Source: Alishewanella jeotgali KCTC 22429 (GTDB lineage: Bacteria; Pseudomonadota; Gammaproteobacteria; Enterobacterales; Alteromonadaceae). Taken from it: a stretch of 64,000 bases of DNA. Positions 16,950 through 35,122 of the stretch are shown here, piece after piece. The notes beneath the pieces were generated by a model, which saw only the letters and a list, made by a program, of their open reading frames with translations, searched no databases and was not told the origin of the DNA. Made by a program: the position numbers and the translations under genes. Location of the stretch: positions 1 through 64,000 of the forward strand of contig NZ_AHTH01000009.1 in NCBI RefSeq assembly GCF_000245735.1, written 5' to 3'. The first letter of the stretch is position 1. Each line of letters starts with the position of its first letter.

Positions 16950-22836
<5,887 letters not shown>

Positions 22837-22843
22837 TTGACAC

Positions 22844-23112
22844 TAGGGCGTGTTGACGTTTGCTGCTTGTTTTTGCAGCTGTTTGGCTGGTGTTTATACA
22901 AGGCAGAGCTTGTGATGTGTAGTTATTCTACATGAACAAGCGATAACGCAGTAGAAACGCCAGCCAAACGCTGCCCGAAGGGTTCACGCTGGCGGCGCTT
23001 TGCTCTTTGTCACTCGTCACTTATTTAGAATAACTAAACTGCGCTCCTCGTTTCGCGATCAAAGCGCCGCCAGTGTGAACAAAATCTAAGCAGCAAACGT
23101 CAACACGCCCTA
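22844..23112. mobile_element. MITE-like element: 23-bp terminal inverted repeats, TA flanks, two internal hairpins
   Basis: A 269-bp non-coding element. Perfect 23-bp terminal inverted repeats (22846-22868 and 23088-23110, starting GGGCGTGTTGACGTTTGCTG) are flanked by TA on both sides, as expected for a TA target duplication. Inside are two further imperfect palindromes: GTTTGGCTGGTGTTT (22881-22895) against AAACGCCAGCCAAAC (22955-22969), and GTTCACGCTGGCGGCGCTTT (from 22982) against its complement ending at 23080 (one mismatch over 21 bp). No open reading frame of note is present, so it would need a transposase in trans. A 54-bp relative sits at 9198-9251 and a decayed left end near 33462. 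Confidence 0.75.
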
Positions 23113-23124
23113 ACTACCCCGCTT

Positions 23125-23150
23125 AATGCCCGCTTATCGCGGGCATTTTT
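23125..23150 (+). terminator. Rho-independent terminator of gltBD
   Basis: A perfect 9-bp stem (AATGCCCGC / GCGGGCATT, loop TTATC) is followed by a T-run. It lies beyond the mobile repeat, which suggests that the repeat inserted between gltD and its original terminator and is now transcribed as part of the gltBD 3' untranslated region. Confidence 0.85.
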
Positions 23151-23197
23151 ATATCCTGCCCACGCGGTGGCGGCGACAAAAAATCTGCAACGGCTGC

Positions 23198-23226
23198 TTG
23201 ACAGTCTGCAGCTGCCGTCATATAAC
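23198..23226 (+). promoter_or_regulatory. Sigma70-type promoter of the peptide-utilisation locus
   Basis: TTGACA at 23198-23203 and TATAAC at 23221-23226 are separated by exactly 17 bp, a near-consensus pair. It lies after the gltBD terminator and 365 bp upstream of the TonB receptor start, so the transcript would have a long leader containing a small reading frame and hairpins. Two TTTCGAA repeats follow shortly downstream and could be an operator. Confidence 0.6.
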
Positions 23227-23323
23227 TGGTATCAGATGGCGAAAAAGACATCTGCGTGAGTTTCGAATCATAACTTTCGAACAGACAACTTAGATATAAA
23301 ACTTACATACAAGAAGTAGCGAT

Positions 23324-23398
23324 ATGTTAAAAAAAGCAATCCAGCTTAGCTCATATCACTACTCGTCATACTACCTCTCTGAGTGGTTTAACGAGTAG
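23324..23398 (+). CDS. Possible 24-residue leader peptide, Ser/Tyr-rich
   Basis: An ATG-initiated reading frame in the leader of the TonB receptor transcript encodes 24 residues, ending LSSYHYSSYYLSEWFNE. It contains four Tyr plus Trp, Phe and His among its last 14 residues. A weak AGAAG ribosome-binding site lies 8 bases upstream. The end of the frame, including the stop codon, is one arm of a perfect 8-bp inverted repeat (CTACTCGT at 23359-23366, ACGAGTAG at 23391-23398). That layout resembles attenuator leaders, but the codons do not include Arg or Asp, the expected products of the downstream enzymes. It may be chance; conservation would decide. Confidence 0.3.
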   Translation: MLKKAIQLSSYHYSSYYLSEWFNE

Positions 23399-23508
23399 AA
23401 ACGTAACAGGTTGATGCGTCACTGATTATTTTCGGTGCTGCGCTACCTGCTTTTCTATTTGTTTGACCCAAAAACCAAATAACAATCATAAAGCAAAAAT
23501 GAAGCTCC

Positions 23509-23567
23509 AGGCGGCTTCACAGCATCTTGCTATGCATTCTCTGATGCATAGAGCTGTGCGGCTGCCT
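23509..23567 (+). promoter_or_regulatory. Large RNA hairpin in the 5' leader of the TonB receptor
   Basis: Three stacked helices pair across this 59-nt stretch: CTATGCAT with ATGCATAG (6-base loop), CACAGC with GCTGTG after an asymmetric bulge, and AGGCGGC with GCTGCCT (one G-U pair). It ends 23 bases before the receptor ATG and has no T-run, so it is not a terminator. It may control translation or mRNA stability, or bind a ligand or protein. I do not recognise a known riboswitch class. Confidence 0.5.
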
Positions 23568-23590
23568 GCTTATCCAAAGAAGGTGTAACC

Positions 23591-26560
23591 ATGAAACGCT
23601 ATGCTCCTCTCTCACTGGCTATTGCTACCGCTTTAGCTATGGCAGTACCAGCTGCTGCCCAGCAAACTACCGAACCAACTGACGAAGCAAAAAGTCTGGA
23701 GCGGATCGCCGTAACCGGCTCGCGCATTAAAGGCGTTGATCTAGAAGGGGCGCAGCCGCTGGTAGTTTTGTCGGCCGAAGATATTAAAAATTCCGGCGCC
23801 GGCTCCCTCTATGAATTACTGAAGGATCTTGGTCAGCTCCGGGGCGGTAACGGCACCTTCTCTACCTCAGAAAGTGGTGCCACCTCAACCGCGACGCCAG
23901 CCGGTCAGGCTGCAGCATCATTACGTGGCTTAGGCCCGGCTTCAACCCTGACCCTGATTAATGGTCGTCGCGTTGCCGCTTCCTCTTTTGCGGCCGGTAC
24001 GCAAAACTTTGTCGACATTAACAGTATTCCGATTGCTGCTATTGAGCGCATCGAAATTCTGGCCACCGGCGCCTCGGCTATTTATGGTGCCGATGCGGTC
24101 GCTGGTGTAATAAACTACATTCTGAAAAAAGATTATGACAAGGCCGAAGTCAATCTGTCCTATGCCAATAGCACCGCATCCAGTGACGAAGGCACAGCCA
24201 ACCTGAATCTGATCTGGGGCCAGCAGGTGGCAGGTGGCAACCTTACCCTGTTTGCCGATCTGGTTGATCGTAAAGCCTTCCGTGCCGCAGACCGCGACTT
24301 TACCCGGACGCCGATTTTACAAAGCAACTATTCTTATCTGCCAAAAGGCACACCGAATATTTACTATTTCTCGACCCGCAGCGGCGATGAAATTGCGACA
24401 CCGGGCTGTCCGACACCACTGGTGACTACTGAATTTGGTGAGCAGATCTGCGCCTATTATCCGAATGAAGATGATGTGCTGCGCAGCCCCATTAAGAGCG
24501 CGTCAGCCGGTTTAATGTTTAATAAAGACTTAAACGCTAACCTGAACTGGCAAACCGATCTGTTCTATACCCGTACCAAATCTACCGCGGTATCCAGCCC
24601 GGCGCCGATTAACCAGCTAAACGATGCCGAAGGTGCCTGGGTGCCGGAAAATGCGCTGGATATCTTTCCCGGTACCACCCGCGATAATGACTTTATCTAT
24701 TTTGGCAACGAGCGCATCTATATCGATCCCTTTTTCTCTCCCACTGGCCGCCGGCTTTGGGGCTTCCAGTTCGACGCCCGCTTTACCGAGCCGCGCACCG
24801 TGGAAGTTACCACTGAAGCGCTGCGACTGGTATCGGCGCTATCCGGTACTTACCGCGACTGGGATTGGGAAAGCGCCGTGCTGGTGTCGCGCTCTAAGTC
24901 GACTCAGGAAGCCGTAGCCGGTATTTATAATCGCTATAAATATCATGCTGCTATCGCCGGTGAGCTCTGCTCAGATGGCAGTATCGCCAGCCGCAGCGGC
25001 AATACGCTTAGCTGTGCCACTGGCACTAATCTGGTCGGTTTTTATAATCCATTTTTACAAAATGATGCCACGAATGACGCCAGACTGGTGCTGGCACAAG
25101 AAGTGCCAACCCGTGATGGTTTAAGTACCCTTTATGGTTGGGATGCGCGGATTAGCGGCGATCTGTTCGAATTCAGGGACAGTTTTGTCAGGGCAGCCTT
25201 TGGTGCTGAACTAAGACGCGAAAAAATCACCGACGAGCCATCCGAAAACGCCCAGGCCCGCTTCGATAATGGCTATCTGGTCGATGTCTTTGGTTTTGGC
25301 TCCAGCTTATCCAGCGCCAGTCGCAATCAGGCAGCGGTGTTTGGTGAGTTCTATGTGCCTCTGACCAGCCAGTTAGAAATGCTGGCAGCCGGCCGTTACG
25401 ACCACTACAACGACTTTGGTGGCACCTTTAATCCAAAGATCGGCTTTACCTACCGGCCTACCGATGAGCTGGTACTGCGCGCTTCCTGGGCCAGCTCGTT
25501 CCGCGCGCCCTCTTTAACCCAGGCCGGGGTAAAGCTTCGTACCACTACCGCTCGCTATGATTGTTCGGCTAATGACGTGGTAAACCAGTTTTACTGTGGC
25601 GGCCAGGGCGGTACCGGCAGTCTGAACGTACTGGAACTGGGTAACCCTGAGTTAAAAGCCGAAACCTCAGAATCGGTCAGTGTCGGTTTTGGCTGGAGCC
25701 CAAGCCGCAATACTACGGTGACCGTAGACTACTGGCAATTTGATCATAAGAAACTGGTCGATACCGATATGACCGCTGCTTTGGCACGCAGTATTACTGA
25801 CGTGAGTCAGCGTCACTGCGGTTTGGTGCCTGAAGGGGCCACTGGTATCGCGCTGAATCCGGATCTGGCCGTTGGCCGTGACCGCTTTAATATCTGTCAG
25901 GTACTGGATAGCGAGGGCCGTAACCTGACCAATCCGAATGCCAATATGCAGCAAATTCTGACCAATTGGGTCAACAGCACGCCAGCACGGGTTACCAGCT
26001 TGCCGTTATTCCGCGACCATGTGATCCTGCTGGAAAACGTTGGCCGGCAGCAAGTTAAGGGTATTGATACCCGTATCAGCCATACCTTTGACTTAACACA
26101 GGGACGGCTGGGGCTAGATCTGGACTGGACCCATTATCTGTCGTTTGAACGCAACAAAGCCGGCTCAGATGAGATTGAGTCGCTGGTAGGCACTTATCGC
26201 TATCCGCGCAATATCGCCAATCTGCGGCTGTCCTGGCGGGCAGAGGATTTCTTCACCGGCTTAGGTCTGAGCTATACCGCATCCTATGCCGATGATATCA
26301 GCCGCCTGCGTAGCCGTAATATTATTGAAATGGAAGATCTGGGTGTGCTGGATGACAACGGTGAGCGCAAAGTCGCCGCCTGGACCACAGTACGCGGCTA
26401 TGTTGGCTACGACTTTAAAAACGCCACTGTCAGCTTTAATATCGACAACCTGTTCGACCGCGACCCGCCACGGGTTTATGGTTCAAGCCGGGGCTTCGAT
26501 TCCATCAATCACAATGCACTGGGCCGTAACTATCGGTTATCCTTTAGCTACTTCTTCTAA
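23591..26560 (+). CDS. TonB-dependent receptor of the isoaspartyl-peptide locus
   Basis: A 989-residue outer-membrane receptor. Residues 1-23 are a signal peptide (ending AAAQQ), followed by a short linker with a TonB-box-like LERIAVTGSRI segment at about 37-47, a plug domain (about 50-170; LRGLGPASTLTLINGRR, FVDINSIPIAAIERIEILATGASAIYGADAVAGVINYIL) and a 22-strand-type barrel with the C-terminal aromatic strand NYRLSFSYFF. It leads an apparent operon with a YfcC permease, IadA and a cyanophycinase-like peptidase, which suggests that its substrate is a peptide such as a beta-Asp-Arg oligomer or cyanophycin fragment (inference from context). The ATG has AAGAAGG nearby upstream. Confidence 0.92.
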   Translation: MKRYAPLSLAIATALAMAVPAAAQQTTEPTDEAKSLERIAVTGSRIKGVDLEGAQPLVVLSAEDIKNSGAGSLYELLKDLGQLRGGNGTFSTSESGATSTATPAGQAAASLRGLGPASTLTLINGRRVAASSFAAGTQNFVDINSIPIAAIERIEILATGASAIYGADAVAGVINYILKKDYDKAEVNLSYANSTASSDEGTANLNLIWGQQVAGGNLTLFADLVDRKAFRAADRDFTRTPILQSNYSYLPKGTPNIYYFSTRSGDEIATPGCPTPLVTTEFGEQICAYYPNEDDVLRSPIKSASAGLMFNKDLNANLNWQTDLFYTRTKSTAVSSPAPINQLNDAEGAWVPENALDIFPGTTRDNDFIYFGNERIYIDPFFSPTGRRLWGFQFDARFTEPRTVEVTTEALRLVSALSGTYRDWDWESAVLVSRSKSTQEAVAGIYNRYKYHAAIAGELCSDGSIASRSGNTLSCATGTNLVGFYNPFLQNDATNDARLVLAQEVPTRDGLSTLYGWDARISGDLFEFRDSFVRAAFGAELRREKITDEPSENAQARFDNGYLVDVFGFGSSLSSASRNQAAVFGEFYVPLTSQLEMLAAGRYDHYNDFGGTFNPKIGFTYRPTDELVLRASWASSFRAPSLTQAGVKLRTTTARYDCSANDVVNQFYCGGQGGTGSLNVLELGNPELKAETSESVSVGFGWSPSRNTTVTVDYWQFDHKKLVDTDMTAALARSITDVSQRHCGLVPEGATGIALNPDLAVGRDRFNICQVLDSEGRNLTNPNANMQQILTNWVNSTPARVTSLPLFRDHVILLENVGRQQVKGIDTRISHTFDLTQGRLGLDLDWTHYLSFERNKAGSDEIESLVGTYRYPRNIANLRLSWRAEDFFTGLGLSYTASYADDISRLRSRNIIEMEDLGVLDDNGERKVAAWTTVRGYVGYDFKNATVSFNIDNLFDRDPPRVYGSSRGFDSINHNALGRNYRLSFSYFF

Positions 26561-26610
26561 ACCCAGGGCTGCCGGCCACTGCCGGCAGCCTGTGCACACA
26601 GGTTAGTTGT

Positions 26611-28095
26611 ATGACACCATCAACCAAACAACCGGCACAGATGCCGGATGCCTTTGTCATCCTGTTTTTCGTGATGATTTTGGCAGCACTGGCATCTTAT
26701 CTGATCCCGGCTGGCAGCTTTAGCCTGACGGAATTGCCAGCCGCAACCGAGGGCGCGGTAAAAGCTAAGGGCAAACTCGATCCGCAAAGTTTTCAGTTTG
26801 CGTCCGAGCAGCAACAAGGTGTACCGCTGTTTGCTGAAGGCGGCGGTATCGGCTTTTTTAACTATGCCTTTGAAGGCCTGGTTTCCGGCAATAAATGGGG
26901 CTCTGCCGTCGGAGTGGTAGCCTTTATTCTGTTAACCGGTGGTGCCTTTGGCATCATTATGAAAACCGGCGCTATCCATAATGGCATAGTGGCGCTGATC
27001 GAAAAAACCCGGCGTACCGAGTTTTTGTTTATCCCGCTGATGTTCGCGCTGTTCTCGCTTGGCGGCGCGGTCTTTGGCATGGGGGAAGAAGCTATCGCCT
27101 TTTGTATCATCCTGCTGCCGCTGATGCTGGCACTGGGCTATGATGCGATCACGACCGTGCTGGTGACCTATGTCGCCACCCAGATCGGTTTTGCTACCTC
27201 CTGGATGAACCCCTTTAATGTGGCCATCGCGCAGGGTATTGCCGAGATCCCGCTGTTATCAGGCGCTGAGTTACGCTATGGCATGTGGGCGGTATTTACG
27301 CTGTTCGGCATCATTTATACCATGCGCTATGCCGCCCGCATTAAAGCCACACCGGAAAGCTCATTGAGTTTTGCTACTGATCAGCGGTTACGGCAGCAGC
27401 AAAGTAGCAGCGTGCAACACCGCTATAACGGTCTGGACAGCCTGATCCTGCTGCTGTTTTTTGCCGGACTGTGCTGGATTATCTGGGGTGTGACTCAGCG
27501 CGAGTACTATATTCCGGAGATTGCCAGTCAGTTTTTCACCATAGGGGTGGTCATTGGCATAGTGGCGGTACTGGGTAACAGAATGCGCGTTAACGAAGTA
27601 GCCGATGGCTTTAAACAAGGTGCGGCCGAATTGTTGCCGGCAGCACTGATTGTTGGCATGGCTAAGGGTATAGTGCTGATCCTCGGTGGTGATAATGCCG
27701 AACAACCCTCAGTACTCAATACGCTGCTGTTTTACTCCGGGCAGGCACTGGGCGATTTTCCGGCCTGGTTATCTGCCTGGTTGATGCTGGTTTTACAATC
27801 TATTTTTAATTTCTTTGTCGCTTCCGGCTCCGGCCAGGCCGCGCTAACCATGCCACTGATTGCCCCGCTCTCCGATATGCTTGGCTTATCACGCCAAATC
27901 GCCGTACTGGCATTTCAGCTCGGTGATGGCCTAACCAACTGCATTATCCCCACCTCCGCCGCCTTGATTGGCTGCCTGGGTGTCGTCAGAGTGGACTGGA
28001 GTGTCTGGCTGAAATTTGCCTGGAAATTACAACTGTGGCTATTTGCGCTGGCGTCGGCTTTTATGCTGCTGGCGGTGGCGATTAATTACCAATAA
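26611..28095 (+). CDS. YfcC-family inner-membrane permease (first copy)
   Basis: A 494-residue integral membrane protein of the YfcC / C4-dicarboxylate-carrier-like family, with about twelve hydrophobic helices. Characteristic stretches are PDAFVILFFVMILAALASYLIPAGSF at the N-terminus, FGMGEEAIAFCIILLPLMLALGYD, ATSWMNPFNVAIAQGIAEIPL, and FFVASGSGQAALTMPLIAPLSDMLGLSRQIAVLAFQLGDGLTNCIIPTSA. Family members are poorly characterised and often lie beside peptidases or arginine/ornithine genes. Here, between a TonB receptor and IadA, it is likely to carry the dipeptide, or Asp or Arg, across the inner membrane (inference). It ends 10 bp before the IadA start. Confidence 0.88.
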   Translation: MTPSTKQPAQMPDAFVILFFVMILAALASYLIPAGSFSLTELPAATEGAVKAKGKLDPQSFQFASEQQQGVPLFAEGGGIGFFNYAFEGLVSGNKWGSAVGVVAFILLTGGAFGIIMKTGAIHNGIVALIEKTRRTEFLFIPLMFALFSLGGAVFGMGEEAIAFCIILLPLMLALGYDAITTVLVTYVATQIGFATSWMNPFNVAIAQGIAEIPLLSGAELRYGMWAVFTLFGIIYTMRYAARIKATPESSLSFATDQRLRQQQSSSVQHRYNGLDSLILLLFFAGLCWIIWGVTQREYYIPEIASQFFTIGVVIGIVAVLGNRMRVNEVADGFKQGAAELLPAALIVGMAKGIVLILGGDNAEQPSVLNTLLFYSGQALGDFPAWLSAWLMLVLQSIFNFFVASGSGQAALTMPLIAPLSDMLGLSRQIAVLAFQLGDGLTNCIIPTSAALIGCLGVVRVDWSVWLKFAWKLQLWLFALASAFMLLAVAINYQ

Positions 28096-28105
28096 TGAGG
28101 TTATC

Positions 28106-29311
28106 TTGGAACAGATTATTCTGATTAAGGGCGCACAACTCTATGCCCCTACTGCGCTTGGCACTAAGGATCTGCTGCTGGCCGGTAATACGATAGCGGC
28201 GATTGCCGATAATTTAATACTTAATGATACCAACTTACCGATCTCGGTGATCGATGGCAGCGGCAAGTTACTGGTGCCTGGCTTTGTCGACTCGCTGGTG
28301 CATTATATCGGCGGCGGTGGTGAGGGTGGCTTTGCTACCCGTACCCCGGAAATGCAGCTGACCGATGCCACTTTAGCCGGCGTGACTACCGCCATTGGCG
28401 TGTTGGGTACCGATGCCACTACCCGTACCCTAAGCAACTTGCTGGCGAAGGCGCATGCGTTAGACATCGAGGGCATCAGTACCTATTGCCACACCGGCTC
28501 TTATGAGATCCCGTGCCGGACGCTGACCGGCAACATTACCGACGATCTGATCCTGATTGATAAAATTATCGGTGTCGGTGAAATTGCCATTAGCGACCAC
28601 CGTTCGTCACAACCTACGATCAGCGAAATCCGCAAGGTTGCCGCTGCCGCCCGGGTTGGCGGTATGCTGGCAGGTAAAGGCGGCGTGGTCAGTGTGCATG
28701 TCGGCAGCGGCAACAGCTTACTGCAACCGCTGTTTGATGCGGTAGCCGGCACCGAGCTAAGCTTAAGCCAATTTTACCCGACCCATATCAACCGCAACGA
28801 AGCCTTGTTTAACGCTGGTCTGGAGTTTGCGCGCGCCGGCGGTGTCATTGATTTTACTACCAGCACCACCGCCTACGATTTGCAGCATGGCGAAGTGGCC
28901 GCCGCCGCCGCCGTTGCCCGGGCCCTGGCTGCCGGTATCAGCCCAATGCAATTAACCATGAGCTCGGATGGCAATGCCAGTCTGCCGATTTTTAGCCCGG
29001 ATGGTCGTTTACTCGGTCTGGAAGTCGGTGCAGTGCGTAGCCTGCATCATTCACTGCAAAGCGCCGTGCTGGAATTTCAGGTGCCACTCAGTGCCGCCCT
29101 GACCACGGTCACCCAGGCACCGGCGCAGGTTTTGGGCCTAAAACAAAAAGGCCAGCTTGCAGTTGGCAAAGATGCTGATATGCTGCTGCTCAATAGCCAT
29201 GATCTGAGTATCGACACCGTGATCGCCAAAGGCCGCTGCCTGGTAAAGGACGGCCGGCCACAGGTGTATGGCACCTTCGAAAAACCGCAGCAATTCGCAA
29301 CAGGAGGTTAG
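28106..29311 (+). CDS. iadA: Isoaspartyl dipeptidase (beta-aspartyl-peptidase, amidohydrolase) IadA
   Basis: IadA hydrolyses beta-aspartyl dipeptides such as beta-Asp-Arg. I choose a TTG start at 28106, preceded by TGAGG with a 5-base gap, giving 401 residues (E. coli about 390); no ATG or GTG sits at a better place. The sequence follows E. coli IadA closely: GGGGEGG, TRTPEMQLTDATLAGVTT, GSYEIPCRTLTGNITDD, ISDHRSSQP, FYPTHINRN and MSSDGNAS. Metal ligands His66, His198, His227 and Asp288 are present, but the first His of the HxH pair is Leu64 and the bridging Lys (E. coli Lys162) is Glu159. That set resembles single-metal amidohydrolases such as NagA. The stop abuts the next ATG. Confidence 0.93.
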   Translation: MEQIILIKGAQLYAPTALGTKDLLLAGNTIAAIADNLILNDTNLPISVIDGSGKLLVPGFVDSLVHYIGGGGEGGFATRTPEMQLTDATLAGVTTAIGVLGTDATTRTLSNLLAKAHALDIEGISTYCHTGSYEIPCRTLTGNITDDLILIDKIIGVGEIAISDHRSSQPTISEIRKVAAAARVGGMLAGKGGVVSVHVGSGNSLLQPLFDAVAGTELSLSQFYPTHINRNEALFNAGLEFARAGGVIDFTTSTTAYDLQHGEVAAAAAVARALAAGISPMQLTMSSDGNASLPIFSPDGRLLGLEVGAVRSLHHSLQSAVLEFQVPLSAALTTVTQAPAQVLGLKQKGQLAVGKDADMLLLNSHDLSIDTVIAKGRCLVKDGRPQVYGTFEKPQQFATGG

Positions 29312-31264
29312 ATGCGTCTTTCCTGCATAAAGCTGCTGCTTTTTAGCAGCCTGGTTGGCCTGGCAGTACCGGGCGCACTGGCGGTTGAGCCGCAGCCGGA
29401 ACCTGCTCAGACAGAACAGCCGTTGGCAGCCGCCGATGCAGCGACGCCGGCTGTTGAGCCTGAACCCAGCATTCTGGATATCGCCAGCACGCCTGCTCAA
29501 GTCCTACCGCAGCCTGAATACGACCTGATGTTAATGGGCGGAGGCCTTGCCACCTGTAGCTCAATGTCAAACCGCAGCTGTCTGGAACAAACCCAGTTCA
29601 GCGCCCTGGCAAAAACCGGTAATCTGTATTGGTTACAACAGAGTCTGCTGCAAAATTTCGCTGCCGCGGAAGTTTTCAGCGCTGAGCGTAAAACTCTGCA
29701 GCAACAGTTGGTGCAGCTGTTTAATCAACTTGCTGCTGAGCATACTGCGCTGCTAACCGAACAACAGTTGGTCGAGCTGTGGCGGGCGGCTCCGGCCACA
29801 GAGCAAGCGCCGGATGGTGAAACCCTGTGGCAACAGCTGTCTGAGCGTGAGTTAAATGTCGTCTTCGATTATCTGGAAGTGCCGACCCTGAGCAGTGATG
29901 GCAAGTACCGGTTAACTGAACACGTTGATTTAGCAAAGACTCAGGATCAGCACTCGGCTGAACTGTACCGTGAGTTTGTGCGTCTGGCGGCAATGAAAGC
30001 CAGCAACAAAGGGCGCAGTGCGCCAAAACTGCTCATGGTGACCGCCTCATCACGGGATCCCTTTGCTGCGGTGGATTTTTATCTGGATGCCTTTCGCCAG
30101 GCTGGCGCAGAGGTAGAGTGGCTACCGCTAACCGCTGCCTTGCAGGCGGCGATGCAGGCGCAAAATTGTCAGGCGCTGCCGCAATTTTTGGCGGACATCC
30201 ATGGTAGCTACCGCCGTGAACAGGTTTATGCGGATCTTTACGCCCTTAAGCTGCAGGCCTGTCAGGCAGGCAGTAAAGCCCTGGTTGCAAAAATTGCTGC
30301 GGCTGATGGCATTTTCTTTAATGGCGGTGATCAAAGTCTGACCTATCAGGCGCTGCGCTTTACGGACGGCTCTGCCAGCCCGGAGCTGACCGCAATCTTC
30401 AGTGCCGTTGCCAAGAAGCAGCTGCTGGTTGGTGGCACCAGCGCTGGTACCGCAGTGATGAGCGGCAATCAGTGGCTGGCACCTCAGCTGGCAGCGGTAC
30501 CGATGATTTCCAACGGCGACAGCTATCATGCCTTACAATATGGCGCGGTAGCGGGCCCTGCGCCCTGGCCGGGTTGTCGCAAAGAAAACCGCTGCCCGGA
30601 TAATTTAAGTGAGCGCCAGCTTACCTACACCGCGGCCGGTGGCCTGGGATTATTCCCGCTCGGTGTGCTGGATACCCATTTTGCCGAGCGCGGCCGTCAG
30701 GCCCGGCTCTTAGTGCTACAGCAGGCAACGCAAACCAGACTGGCTTTTGGTGTTGATGAAGCCAGTGCCATGCTGGTGGATTTAGGCCACTATGCCACAG
30801 GGCTGGTGCAAATGGCTGCCCGCGGCGCCGGTGAGGTCTATGTCAGCGAGTTACAGTCAGAGTCGAGCAAAGCGCAGTTACTGGCGCACACCTATACCCT
30901 GACAGCGGGCGATACGTTAGTCTGGCAAGCGGAAGCCTTGCCCCAGGCTGAGACTTTAACCCCGGCTAAGTCCTCGCCCCAGGCTGAGAATGTGCCCCAA
31001 CAGGTAACACTAACGCTGGTGCCCGCCGCCGCTAAAACGCCGCTCACCGAGCAGGCCGAGCCGCTGCATAGCAAGAGCCCGCTATTTAGCCGCGATCACT
31101 ACCGTAGCCTGAGCCGTTCACTGTGCCGCAGCAACTTTCACAGTGCCACCGTCAGTGAGCCACCTTATCTGATCCGGCTGAGTAAAGACGGCGCTTGCAG
31201 TGCCGATGCCGAAGGTAACCTCAGTTATCGCCAGCAGCTACGCATTATCAGTCCGGCTGAATAA
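29312..31264 (+). CDS. Exported cyanophycinase-like serine peptidase (family S51)
   Basis: Cyanophycinase cuts multi-L-arginyl-poly-L-aspartate into beta-Asp-Arg dipeptides. This 650-residue protein has a signal peptide (1-24, ending GALA), an acidic Pro/Glu linker (to about 55), an N-terminal extension, and an S51 core at about 235-510. Core motifs are FFNGGDQSLT (338-341), GGTSAGTAVMS with nucleophile Ser377, VLDTHFAERGRQARL with His456, and FGVDEASA with Glu483, the Ser-His-Glu set of the family. The C-terminal 140 residues carry a short repeat (PQAETLTPAKSSPQAENVPQ) and a further domain. The ATG follows AGGAGG directly after the IadA stop. It is about twice the length of cytoplasmic CphB and fits an extracellular CphE-type enzyme. 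Activity on cyanophycin itself is inferred from motifs and neighbours. Confidence 0.87.
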   Translation: MRLSCIKLLLFSSLVGLAVPGALAVEPQPEPAQTEQPLAAADAATPAVEPEPSILDIASTPAQVLPQPEYDLMLMGGGLATCSSMSNRSCLEQTQFSALAKTGNLYWLQQSLLQNFAAAEVFSAERKTLQQQLVQLFNQLAAEHTALLTEQQLVELWRAAPATEQAPDGETLWQQLSERELNVVFDYLEVPTLSSDGKYRLTEHVDLAKTQDQHSAELYREFVRLAAMKASNKGRSAPKLLMVTASSRDPFAAVDFYLDAFRQAGAEVEWLPLTAALQAAMQAQNCQALPQFLADIHGSYRREQVYADLYALKLQACQAGSKALVAKIAAADGIFFNGGDQSLTYQALRFTDGSASPELTAIFSAVAKKQLLVGGTSAGTAVMSGNQWLAPQLAAVPMISNGDSYHALQYGAVAGPAPWPGCRKENRCPDNLSERQLTYTAAGGLGLFPLGVLDTHFAERGRQARLLVLQQATQTRLAFGVDEASAMLVDLGHYATGLVQMAARGAGEVYVSELQSESSKAQLLAHTYTLTAGDTLVWQAEALPQAETLTPAKSSPQAENVPQQVTLTLVPAAAKTPLTEQAEPLHSKSPLFSRDHYRSLSRSLCRSNFHSATVSEPPYLIRLSKDGACSADAEGNLSYRQQLRIISPAE

Positions 31265-33676: not shown

Positions 33677-35122
33677 ATGGGAAAGTTTAAAGTTCCGCAC
33701 ACTCTCACGCTACTGTTTAGCATGATGGTGATTGCGATGATCGCCACCTGGATTGTTCCCCAGGGTTTCTTTGCTACCGAGACCATGGCCAACGGCCGGG
33801 CTGTGGTAGTGCCGGGCACCTTTAGTCTGGTTGACGAGCGCAGCTATCTGACACCCTGGCAATTATTAACGGCCATTCCACGGGCTTTTGCCTCCGCCCA
33901 GGATGTGATTTTCTTTGTGATGATTTTAGGCGGCGTGCTGGCAGTGGCCCGCGCAACCGGTACCGTGGATGCGCTGATTGGCCGCTTACTGGAGCGTTTT
34001 GGCTCCCGGCCACAGATGCTGATCTTTATGGTGATCTTCTGCTTTGCGATGGCATCCAGTTTTATTGGTACCGCCGGTGAATATATTCCCTTCGTATTAA
34101 TTCTGGTGGCGCTGTGCAAAGCCATGCGGCTGGATGCGATGACGGCAGTCGGTATGACGGTGGCCGGTTATGGTATTGGCTACGGCATTTCTGCGGTCAA
34201 TCCATTTACGCTGGTGATTGCCCAACAAATCGCCGATATTCCGATTTTATCCGGTTGGGAGCTGCGGGCAGCAATTTTTCTGCCCTTTGTGTTAATTGGT
34301 TTTCACCATGTCTGGAGTTATGCCAAAAAGGTCGCGCAAGACCCGAGCCAATCGATGGTAAAAGATTTGCCCTGCCCCCTGGGTGATAAGCATGCGGTCG
34401 ATTATCCGAACTTAAACTGGCGGCATCGCCTGATCCTGGGCAGCTTTGTGCTGACTATCGGTGTGGTAGCCTACAATATCCGGATGAATGGCTGGTATCT
34501 GTATGAGCTGGGTGCCGCCTTTATCGCCTGGGGCTTATTTGTGGTAGTGGTTGGCAATATCAGTACCGATACTGCCGCGAAAAAATTTATCGAGGGCGCG
34601 ATGGAGCTCACCACCACCGCAGTATTAATCGGTGTCGCGCGCGGGATTTCACTGATTTTGGAAGATGGCCAGATCCTGCATTCGCTGGTGCATGGTATGT
34701 CAATGCCGTTGTCTTTTGTCGGCGCTGAAGTGGCGGCAGTGGGTATGCTGTTTATCCAGACCTTGCTGAACTTCTTTATCCCGTCCGGCAGTGGCCAGGC
34801 TTACGTCACTATGCCACTGATGGTACCACTGAGTGATCTGCTGGAAATTCCGCGCCAGGTTGCCGTATTGGCGTATCAGTTTGGCGATGGTTTCTCTAAT
34901 ATGATTATCCCAACCAATGCGATTCTAATGGGCATTATCGGTATTGCCGGTATCCCTTACGGTCACTGGTTCCGCTTCTGTTTACCGCTGATGGTCAAAC
35001 TGATGCTGGCCTCCTCGGTGGTACTGGTATTGGCAGTGGTATTTAACTTTGGTGCTGATGTACAACCCGCCGATCTGCCATTGCAATCCAAGGTGCAGCA
35101 ACACACTGAACAGGTTAACTAG
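33677..35122 (+). CDS. YfcC-family inner-membrane permease (second copy)
   Basis: A 481-residue polytopic protein of the same family as the permease at 26611, with about twelve helices. Shared motifs: FKVPHTLTLLFSMMVIAMIATWIVPQGFF, ASSFIGTAGEYIPFVLILVALCKAMRLD, GYGISAVNPFTLVIAQQIADIPILSGWELR, and NFFIPSGSGQAYVTMPLMVPLSDLLEIPRQVAVLAYQFGDGFSNMIIPTNA. The two copies are clearly divergent paralogues. This one has its own leader, AAGG ahead of the ATG, and a strong terminator. The substrate is unknown; amino acids or dipeptides are plausible given the nearby peptide locus. Confidence 0.87.
   Translation: MGKFKVPHTLTLLFSMMVIAMIATWIVPQGFFATETMANGRAVVVPGTFSLVDERSYLTPWQLLTAIPRAFASAQDVIFFVMILGGVLAVARATGTVDALIGRLLERFGSRPQMLIFMVIFCFAMASSFIGTAGEYIPFVLILVALCKAMRLDAMTAVGMTVAGYGIGYGISAVNPFTLVIAQQIADIPILSGWELRAAIFLPFVLIGFHHVWSYAKKVAQDPSQSMVKDLPCPLGDKHAVDYPNLNWRHRLILGSFVLTIGVVAYNIRMNGWYLYELGAAFIAWGLFVVVVGNISTDTAAKKFIEGAMELTTTAVLIGVARGISLILEDGQILHSLVHGMSMPLSFVGAEVAAVGMLFIQTLLNFFIPSGSGQAYVTMPLMVPLSDLLEIPRQVAVLAYQFGDGFSNMIIPTNAILMGIIGIAGIPYGHWFRFCLPLMVKLMLASSVVLVLAVVFNFGADVQPADLPLQSKVQQHTEQVN

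Follow-up and report, generated by a model that had tools for sequence, protein, structure and literature searches.

We analysed a 64,000-nt stretch of the Alishewanella jeotgali KCTC 22429 genome (3.83 Mb; contig NZ_AHTH01000009.1, positions 1–64,000 of the forward strand; hereafter the window) and found that an operon encoding a TonB-dependent receptor (TBDR), a YfcC-type permease, an isoaspartyl dipeptidase (IadA) and a peptidase of family S51 is preceded by a conserved 24-codon leader open reading frame (ORF; MLKKAIQLSSYHYSSYYLSEWFNE followed by a stop codon, 23324..23398, + strand). We consider it probable that this locus is an operon for scavenging cyanophycin (multi-L-arginyl-poly-L-aspartate), the nitrogen store of cyanobacteria, and that its expression is set by the leader ORF. 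To our knowledge, the consumers of cyanophycin and the switch that turns on its uptake are poorly known. The basis in the data consists of the genes and their linkage, the predicted fold and catalytic triad of the S51 protein, the joint loss of the triad and the neighbouring genes, selection on the leader codons, the position of a hairpin behind the leader, and the finding that the leader precedes varying transport genes close to iadA. An earlier sequence-only reading of the same DNA had proposed an operon for cyanophycin or beta-aspartyl peptide use with its own uptake route; its gene assignments hold up and describe a largely known kind of operon; what is new is the leader ORF. Also beyond that proposal are the S51 pseudoenzymes and the leucine that replaces the first metal-binding histidine of IadA, both described below.

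S51 relatives were sought in 98 genomes spanning the genus to the order and were present in 53 of them, including all 31 of the genus. From among the matches listed we took 140 stretches of at most 20 kb around S51 matches, which gave 135 long S51 ORFs (3 of the 135 stretches were shorter than 15 kb), the other 5 stretches holding only short-form S51 below 150 bits. Left out of this set were eight weak short-form matches of the 98-genome search, other weaker short-form matches, and the long-form matches in G233, G262, G303, G292, G277, G130, G248, G161, G252 and G164. The Ser/His/Glu triad was complete in 99/135 long S51 proteins and had lost at least one residue in 36. Ninety of the 99 intact genes had iadA and/or yfcC in the stretch (hereafter linked loci), 77 of these 90 also with a TBDR related to that of the window; none of the 36 broken genes had iadA, yfcC or such a TBDR in its stretch. 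On an S51 tree made without the motif columns, a quick build in which some long branches were flagged, all 13 changes were forced by well-supported branches, and linkage agreed in ~10 independent pairs, opposed in 0 and did not differ in ~3 (p ~0.002).

We also scanned with motifs that surround the catalytic His and Glu of S51; given this query, and with only the best 80 of 427 kept, the result favours enzymes that are intact and closely related. Of the 80 loci, 59 showed TBDR, YfcC, IadA and leader, and another 7 showed YfcC and IadA with the leader. The genera carrying the locus include Alishewanella, Rheinheimera, Arsukibacterium, Alkalimonas, Colwellia, Thalassotalea, Lacimicrobium, Bowmanella, Aliiglaciecola, Alteromonas, Pseudoalteromonas, Shewanella, Aliidiomarina, Idiomarina and Neiella, which makes a chance arrangement very unlikely. 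The named-genera loci and the S51-stretch set overlap in genomes, so that some entries are repeated in the combined totals of 156 leaders and 150 IadA; the S51-stretch set alone contains 84 leaders and 83 IadA. Within the genus, iadA scored above its cut-off in 24/31 genomes and in every case had an S51 gene next to it; G025 carried it solely in a second cluster type. This second type (L080, L081, L223, L228, L237 and L240) showed the end of another TonB receptor, recognised by eye, followed by S51, YfcC and IadA in line without the leader ORF; YfcC was not detected in L240.

S51 was most often divergent from TBDR, YfcC and IadA, and IadA lay on the S51 strand in 10/135 loci. The in-line order with S51 last occurred in the window and three close Alishewanella relatives (L032, L034 and L035) and, as judged from positions, in four genomes that belong to a different family (G446, G560, G584 and G600). 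Thus, of the receptor-permease-iadA-S51 arrangement that the sequence-only reading had suggested seeking in relatives, the linkage was conserved, but the in-line order with S51 last was uncommon. The nearest named relatives by S51 identity were Alishewanella agri BL06 (97%) and A. aestuarii B11 (96%). The latter is a natural deletion strain: the leader, TBDR, YfcC and most of IadA are missing at its locus (L033, 6511–6856), and its S51 is intact. Cyanophycin synthetase scored above cut-off in 4/60 genomes and in none of the 31 of the genus (the window genome and its 30 genus mates), as expected for a scavenger. The window has the composition of a cyanophycin utilization locus, with a cyanophycinase (here the S51 protein, below the family cut-off) and an isoaspartyl dipeptidase within 5 kb, a transporter nearby and no cphA1.

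The leader came to light in a comparison of 78 receptor upstream regions, 70 of which shared one 8-mer, compared with 0.8 in shuffles. This 8-mer was part of a 24-codon ORF running from ATG to stop, which lay upstream and on the receptor strand in 70/70 regions first aligned. The same peptide type was present in all 77 TBDR-linked loci (76 by a motif filter, L192 by eye) and in 7 of the 13 linked loci without a window-related TBDR; it occurred in 0/36 broken-S51 loci and in one of the nine unlinked intact loci, on a 3.8-kb contig. An exact DNA pattern gave one copy each in 26/60 genomes, corresponding to the 23 genus members with iadA at the locus and three others, and the reversed pattern used as a control gave no match in these 60. 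The exact-pattern scans of the 60 genomes, the order and the class allowed no mismatch and therefore missed leader variants.

Several features indicated that the leader is translated. Entropy over 94 distinct leaders was 0.70, 0.57 and 1.19 at codon positions 1, 2 and 3; Leu18 and Ser19 were invariant, yet six codons were used for each; and pN/pS was 0.28 in 53 less similar sequences. A5, Y11, Y17, L18, S19 and E20 were invariant in the 94 (L192, outside this set, departs at position 5), and Tyr occupied positions 11 and 17 in 94/94, position 13 in 91 and position 16 in 40. The most constrained part was the terminal YLSEWF(D/N)E; the uniform length and W21 stem in part from the motif filter, which required a Trp near the end and preferred ATG and 24 codons. 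As in arrest leaders, a short ORF thus stands in the 5′ leader of a catabolic operon with residues conserved up to the stop. The peptide had no NCBIfam match and a single chance-level match in Pfam (E 0.056). A known RNA element was rejected, as an Rfam scan of 22800–23700 gave no family at gathering score, and so was an ArgR-type operator upstream of the receptor (best matches mean 10.40 compared with 10.21 in shuffles, sd 0.70). In the open literature the string YLSEWF gave no match, isoaspartyl dipeptidase combined with leader peptide gave no such leader among the titles listed, and leader peptide near a TonB receptor (stalling, Alteromonadales) gave only reinitiation work, as judged by the search listing.

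A hairpin begins 8 nt past the leader stop codon in the window and is followed by a T-rich stretch (23407..23449, + strand; RNAfold −19.3 kcal/mol on 72 nt), making it a candidate attenuator. Over 154 loci, some genomes being counted twice, the first 70 nt after the leader stop had a mean folding z of −2.58, with 79% under −1.5; two control stretches gave mean z values of −0.35 and −0.41. In 78/102 distinct regions, a first stem of 4 bp or longer began within 10 nt of the stop, and two or more stems were found in 74/102. In eight Rheinheimera-type sequences, the two hairpins were paired in 96/96 cells with little variation.

Searched with the exact pattern, 38/394 genomes of the order contained the leader, as did 2/369 genomes of the class, and these two belong to the same family as the window. 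In a different family, eight genomes kept the leader without a long S51, and iadA lay downstream on the leader strand in seven of them. In one of the eight (L278), the leader was followed by the gene for a Lys/Arg/Orn-class periplasmic binding protein (TIGR01096, 277.8 bits, above the cut-off of 256.35) and then by iadA. G600 contained three copies: one upstream of YfcC, IadA and S51 (~3 kb ahead of YfcC were outside the sequence read), one ~1.2 kb before a match to short-form S51, and one before another TonB receptor. One and the same leader thus precedes differing hardware that shares a metabolic theme.

In the window, the genes follow gltB and gltD on the + strand in the order TBDR (989 aa, 23591..26560; PF00593 barrel and PF07715 Plug; a conserved neighbour), YfcC-type permease of the DcuC family (494 aa, 26611..28095; NF008611 722.7 bits, above the cut-off of 500), matching also PF03606, IadA of the Glu (Type I) form with a TTG start (28106..29311; TIGR01975 489.1 bits, above 331.25) and S51 peptidase (650 aa, 29312..31264). 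The one-strand arrangement with gaps of 50, 10 and 0 bp, as described in the sequence-only reading, was borne out in positions and families. The promoter claimed ahead of the operon is also present as a candidate sigma-70-type sequence, TTGACA – 17 nt – TATAAC (23198..23226, + strand; hexamers at 23198–23203 and 23221–23226, read directly from the sequence), though a consensus promoter scan of 22800–23700 listed zero promoter-like sites, because its rule wants T as the last base. A second YfcC-like permease lies nearby at 33677–35122 (304 bits, below the cut-off of 500). The interval from gltD to the operon contains a 269-bp stretch (22844–23112) that is bounded by perfect 24-nt inverted ends (TAGGGCGTGTTGACGTTTGCTGCT), noticed by eye, and looks like a small mobile element.

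The triad of the S51 protein, previously reported as intact, was confirmed: Ser377, His456 and Glu483 sit in GTSAG, DTHF and VDEA. The predicted fold was clearly that of cyanophycinase (CphB), matching well above dipeptidase E, and GGDQ and the DxHF..R.R..RLL block are common to the window protein and solved cyanophycinases. A signal-peptide-like N terminus, read by eye, suggests that the protein is probably exported. Among the 36 broken relatives (for example L036 8790–10715, L053 9180–11027, L059, L060, L083–L085, L200 and L241), Ser was lost in 31, His in 31 and Glu in 18. They are full length with dN/dS of 0.027–0.106 (9 pairs; dS saturated, >2, in three), compared with 0.034–0.243 in intact S51 (12 pairs), and so do not look like decaying genes; they appear to be pseudo-cyanophycinases under purifying selection. 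A literature search for cyanophycinase with pseudoenzyme gave nothing in the open literature. Neighbours of these genes were named by eye. An ArcB-like kinase gene stands downstream of S51 on the same strand in Rheinheimera/Arsukibacterium-type loci (L037–L063), 28–45 nt away in the eight broken-S51 loci measured; a functional link was considered and left undrawn, as other groups lack a kinase neighbour. A group of 24 S51 genes (L077, L078, L197–L202, L210–L212 and others; 20 broken, 4 intact, none with iadA nearby) has pyrE and rph as neighbours, and ntrBC, often together with glnA, lies a few kb away.

The window IadA deviates from the HxH metal motif, reading LVH with the Leu codon at 28295–28297. 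The same Leu replaces the first metal His in 150/150 IadA loci (107 distinct proteins, with the repeats noted above), the other ligand positions checked being kept, whereas solved IadAs whose alignments were compared have His. Eight other iadA genes of the order comprised five with His, including three beside cphA, and three with Leu, so that Leu marks an IadA subfamily and not the leader alone.

For the pathway we infer the following substrate and transport steps. Outside the cell or in the periplasm, the exported S51 would break cyanophycin down to beta-Asp-Arg or short fragments; the TBDR would move polymer pieces or oligomers across the outer membrane; YfcC would carry the dipeptide or Arg across the inner membrane; and IadA would split beta-Asp-X in the cytoplasm. 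We read the leader ORF as encoding a regulatory leader peptide, perhaps a metabolite sensor like TnaC or SpeFL; with its aromatic residues and hardly any variation right up to the stop codon, it resembles termination-arrest peptides. We infer stalling, a ligand and antitermination as its mode of action. In the likeliest version, a ribosome completing YLSEWF(D/N)E would stall at the stop codon when a pathway product (Arg, Asp or beta-Asp-Arg) is abundant and would cover the start of the hairpin beginning a few bases later, and RNA polymerase could then pass into the TBDR gene. Tentatively, and with less than even confidence, we propose a new arrest peptide, a 24-residue chain ending in YLSEWF(D/N)E that, from within the ribosome tunnel, may sense Arg, Lys or a beta-aspartyl dipeptide and command a cyanophycin/isoaspartyl peptide regulon across one order, whatever the transport machinery.

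A number of observations weigh against the proposed scavenging operon and its leader control. The S51 protein missed both the TIGR02069 cut-off (81.2 compared with 126.6 bits) and, narrowly, that of Pfam PF03575 (23.8 compared with 23.9), and nine intact S51 genes, one of them on a 3.8-kb contig, had no iadA and yfcC nearby. Leu occupied the metal-ligand position in 83/83 IadA loci of the S51-stretch set, so that IadA activity cannot be assumed from solved relatives. The six linked second-type clusters, where the gene directly preceding S51 has an end resembling that of a different TBDR (by eye), had no leader of this kind, and iadA was not found in the eighth other-family genome (G374), where the leader lies 0.9 kb from the contig end. 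The window peptide has no Arg or Asp, and no run of such codons, as in HisL/TrpL-type attenuators, was found in it or its relatives; the sequence does not support a leader that counts Arg or Asp codons. A simple terminator scan listed nothing at the window hairpin, a T-rich tail followed the first hairpin in only 31/102 distinct regions, indicating that an intrinsic terminator is not general, and covariation was weak (one pair changed on both sides; 84/500 shuffles scored as high).

Other explanations of the enzymes were weighed against cyanophycin scavenging. A second, non-enzymatic role of S51, which would make its neighbourhood with IadA and transport genes only partly about catalysis, could account for the full-length, selected proteins among the 36/135 lacking a triad residue; we regard it as rather unlikely, given that the triad is intact in all 90 loci keeping iadA and/or yfcC. 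The operon might instead scavenge other beta-linked peptides, such as the isoaspartyl peptides that come from damaged protein, with S51 as a general exo-peptidase. The IadA of a cyanophycin cluster is promiscuous (PMC10206079), CpsIadA accepts several beta-Asp dipeptides (PMC5517026), both as given in the available parts of these sources, and the S51 score lies below the cyanophycinase cut-off. That alternative is nevertheless unlikely in view of the fold match well above dipeptidase E, the GGDQ and Arg-rich block shared with solved cyanophycinases, and the Lys/Arg/Orn-type binding protein that has the same leader elsewhere.

For the 24-codon ORF, we likewise hold it unlikely that the product is a functional small protein, such as an envelope or signalling peptide, rather than a cis-acting leader: conservation does span much of the peptide, with the six invariant residues given above, but the ORF kept its place upstream on the receptor strand in all regions first aligned, stands before different genes in its three G600 copies, is absent where the operon is absent and has a hairpin adjoining its stop. 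A classical attenuator counting Tyr-tRNA, or a plain translation-coupling upstream ORF without a ligand, seems distinctly improbable; the recurrent tyrosines would suit it, but constraint peaks at the terminal YLSEWF(D/N)E, which Tyr counting does not need, and Tyr supply has no evident link to the pathway. A ligand-sensing leader would be one of a small number of natural nascent peptides that sense ligands and would provide a clean genome marker for the regulon and a possible sensor part. The leader makes the regulation of cyanophycin use testable, and the locus supplies a concrete set of genes that can be tested in many culturable bacteria. The pseudoenzymes raise the question why a broken, probably secreted peptidase stays under selection.

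Among known systems, the leader is most readily compared with TnaC, a 24-residue peptide ahead of a catabolic operon that stalls at its own stop codon at high Trp, blocking Rho, and with SpeFL, a termination-arrest peptide sensing ornithine, to which a likeness is proposed (PMC8429421, in the part available). Unlike these, the new leader has no NCBIfam or Pfam match beyond chance and is followed by a hairpin and not a shown Rho site. The window S51 shares with CphB (3EN0, 7UQW) the fold, Ser-His-Glu, GGDQ and the Arg-rich loop, but differs in being 650 aa long and probably exported, with a large insert after the first strand and ~250 more residues inside the aligned span, in having Thr where CphB has Gln before His, and in its score below the TIGR02069 cut-off. 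In CpsIadA (Type I; PMC5517026, as far as its available text goes), Glu replaces the carbamylated Lys, as does the GVGE of the window protein, but the first metal motif is HAH, compared with LxH in the linked IadAs.

The cyanophycin reading of the operon was thus borne out in part, by the conserved linkage, the co-loss of triad and genes, the missing synthetase and the cyanophycinase fold, and qualified by the uncommon in-line order. The claim that an outer-membrane receptor step would be 'less described' proved less new than presented, since cyanophycin loci and a cyanophycinase-adjacent TonB receptor are already in print (PMC10206079 and PMC3400609, in the portions available). In Citromicrobium, a TonB receptor lies close to a cyanophycinase gene, with cyanophycin listed as its predicted substrate (PMC3400609); this resembles our locus but concerns one strain's neighbourhood, whereas the set described here is conserved over many genera with IadA, YfcC and the leader. 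The 'cyanophycin utilization locus' of Ben Hania et al. (PMC10206079) likewise clusters cyanophycinase, isoaspartyl dipeptidase and transporter in genomes without cphA1. Compared with that locus as PMC10206079 describes it, the window adds the TonB receptor, YfcC, the long S51, the Leu-type IadA and the 24-codon leader ORF.

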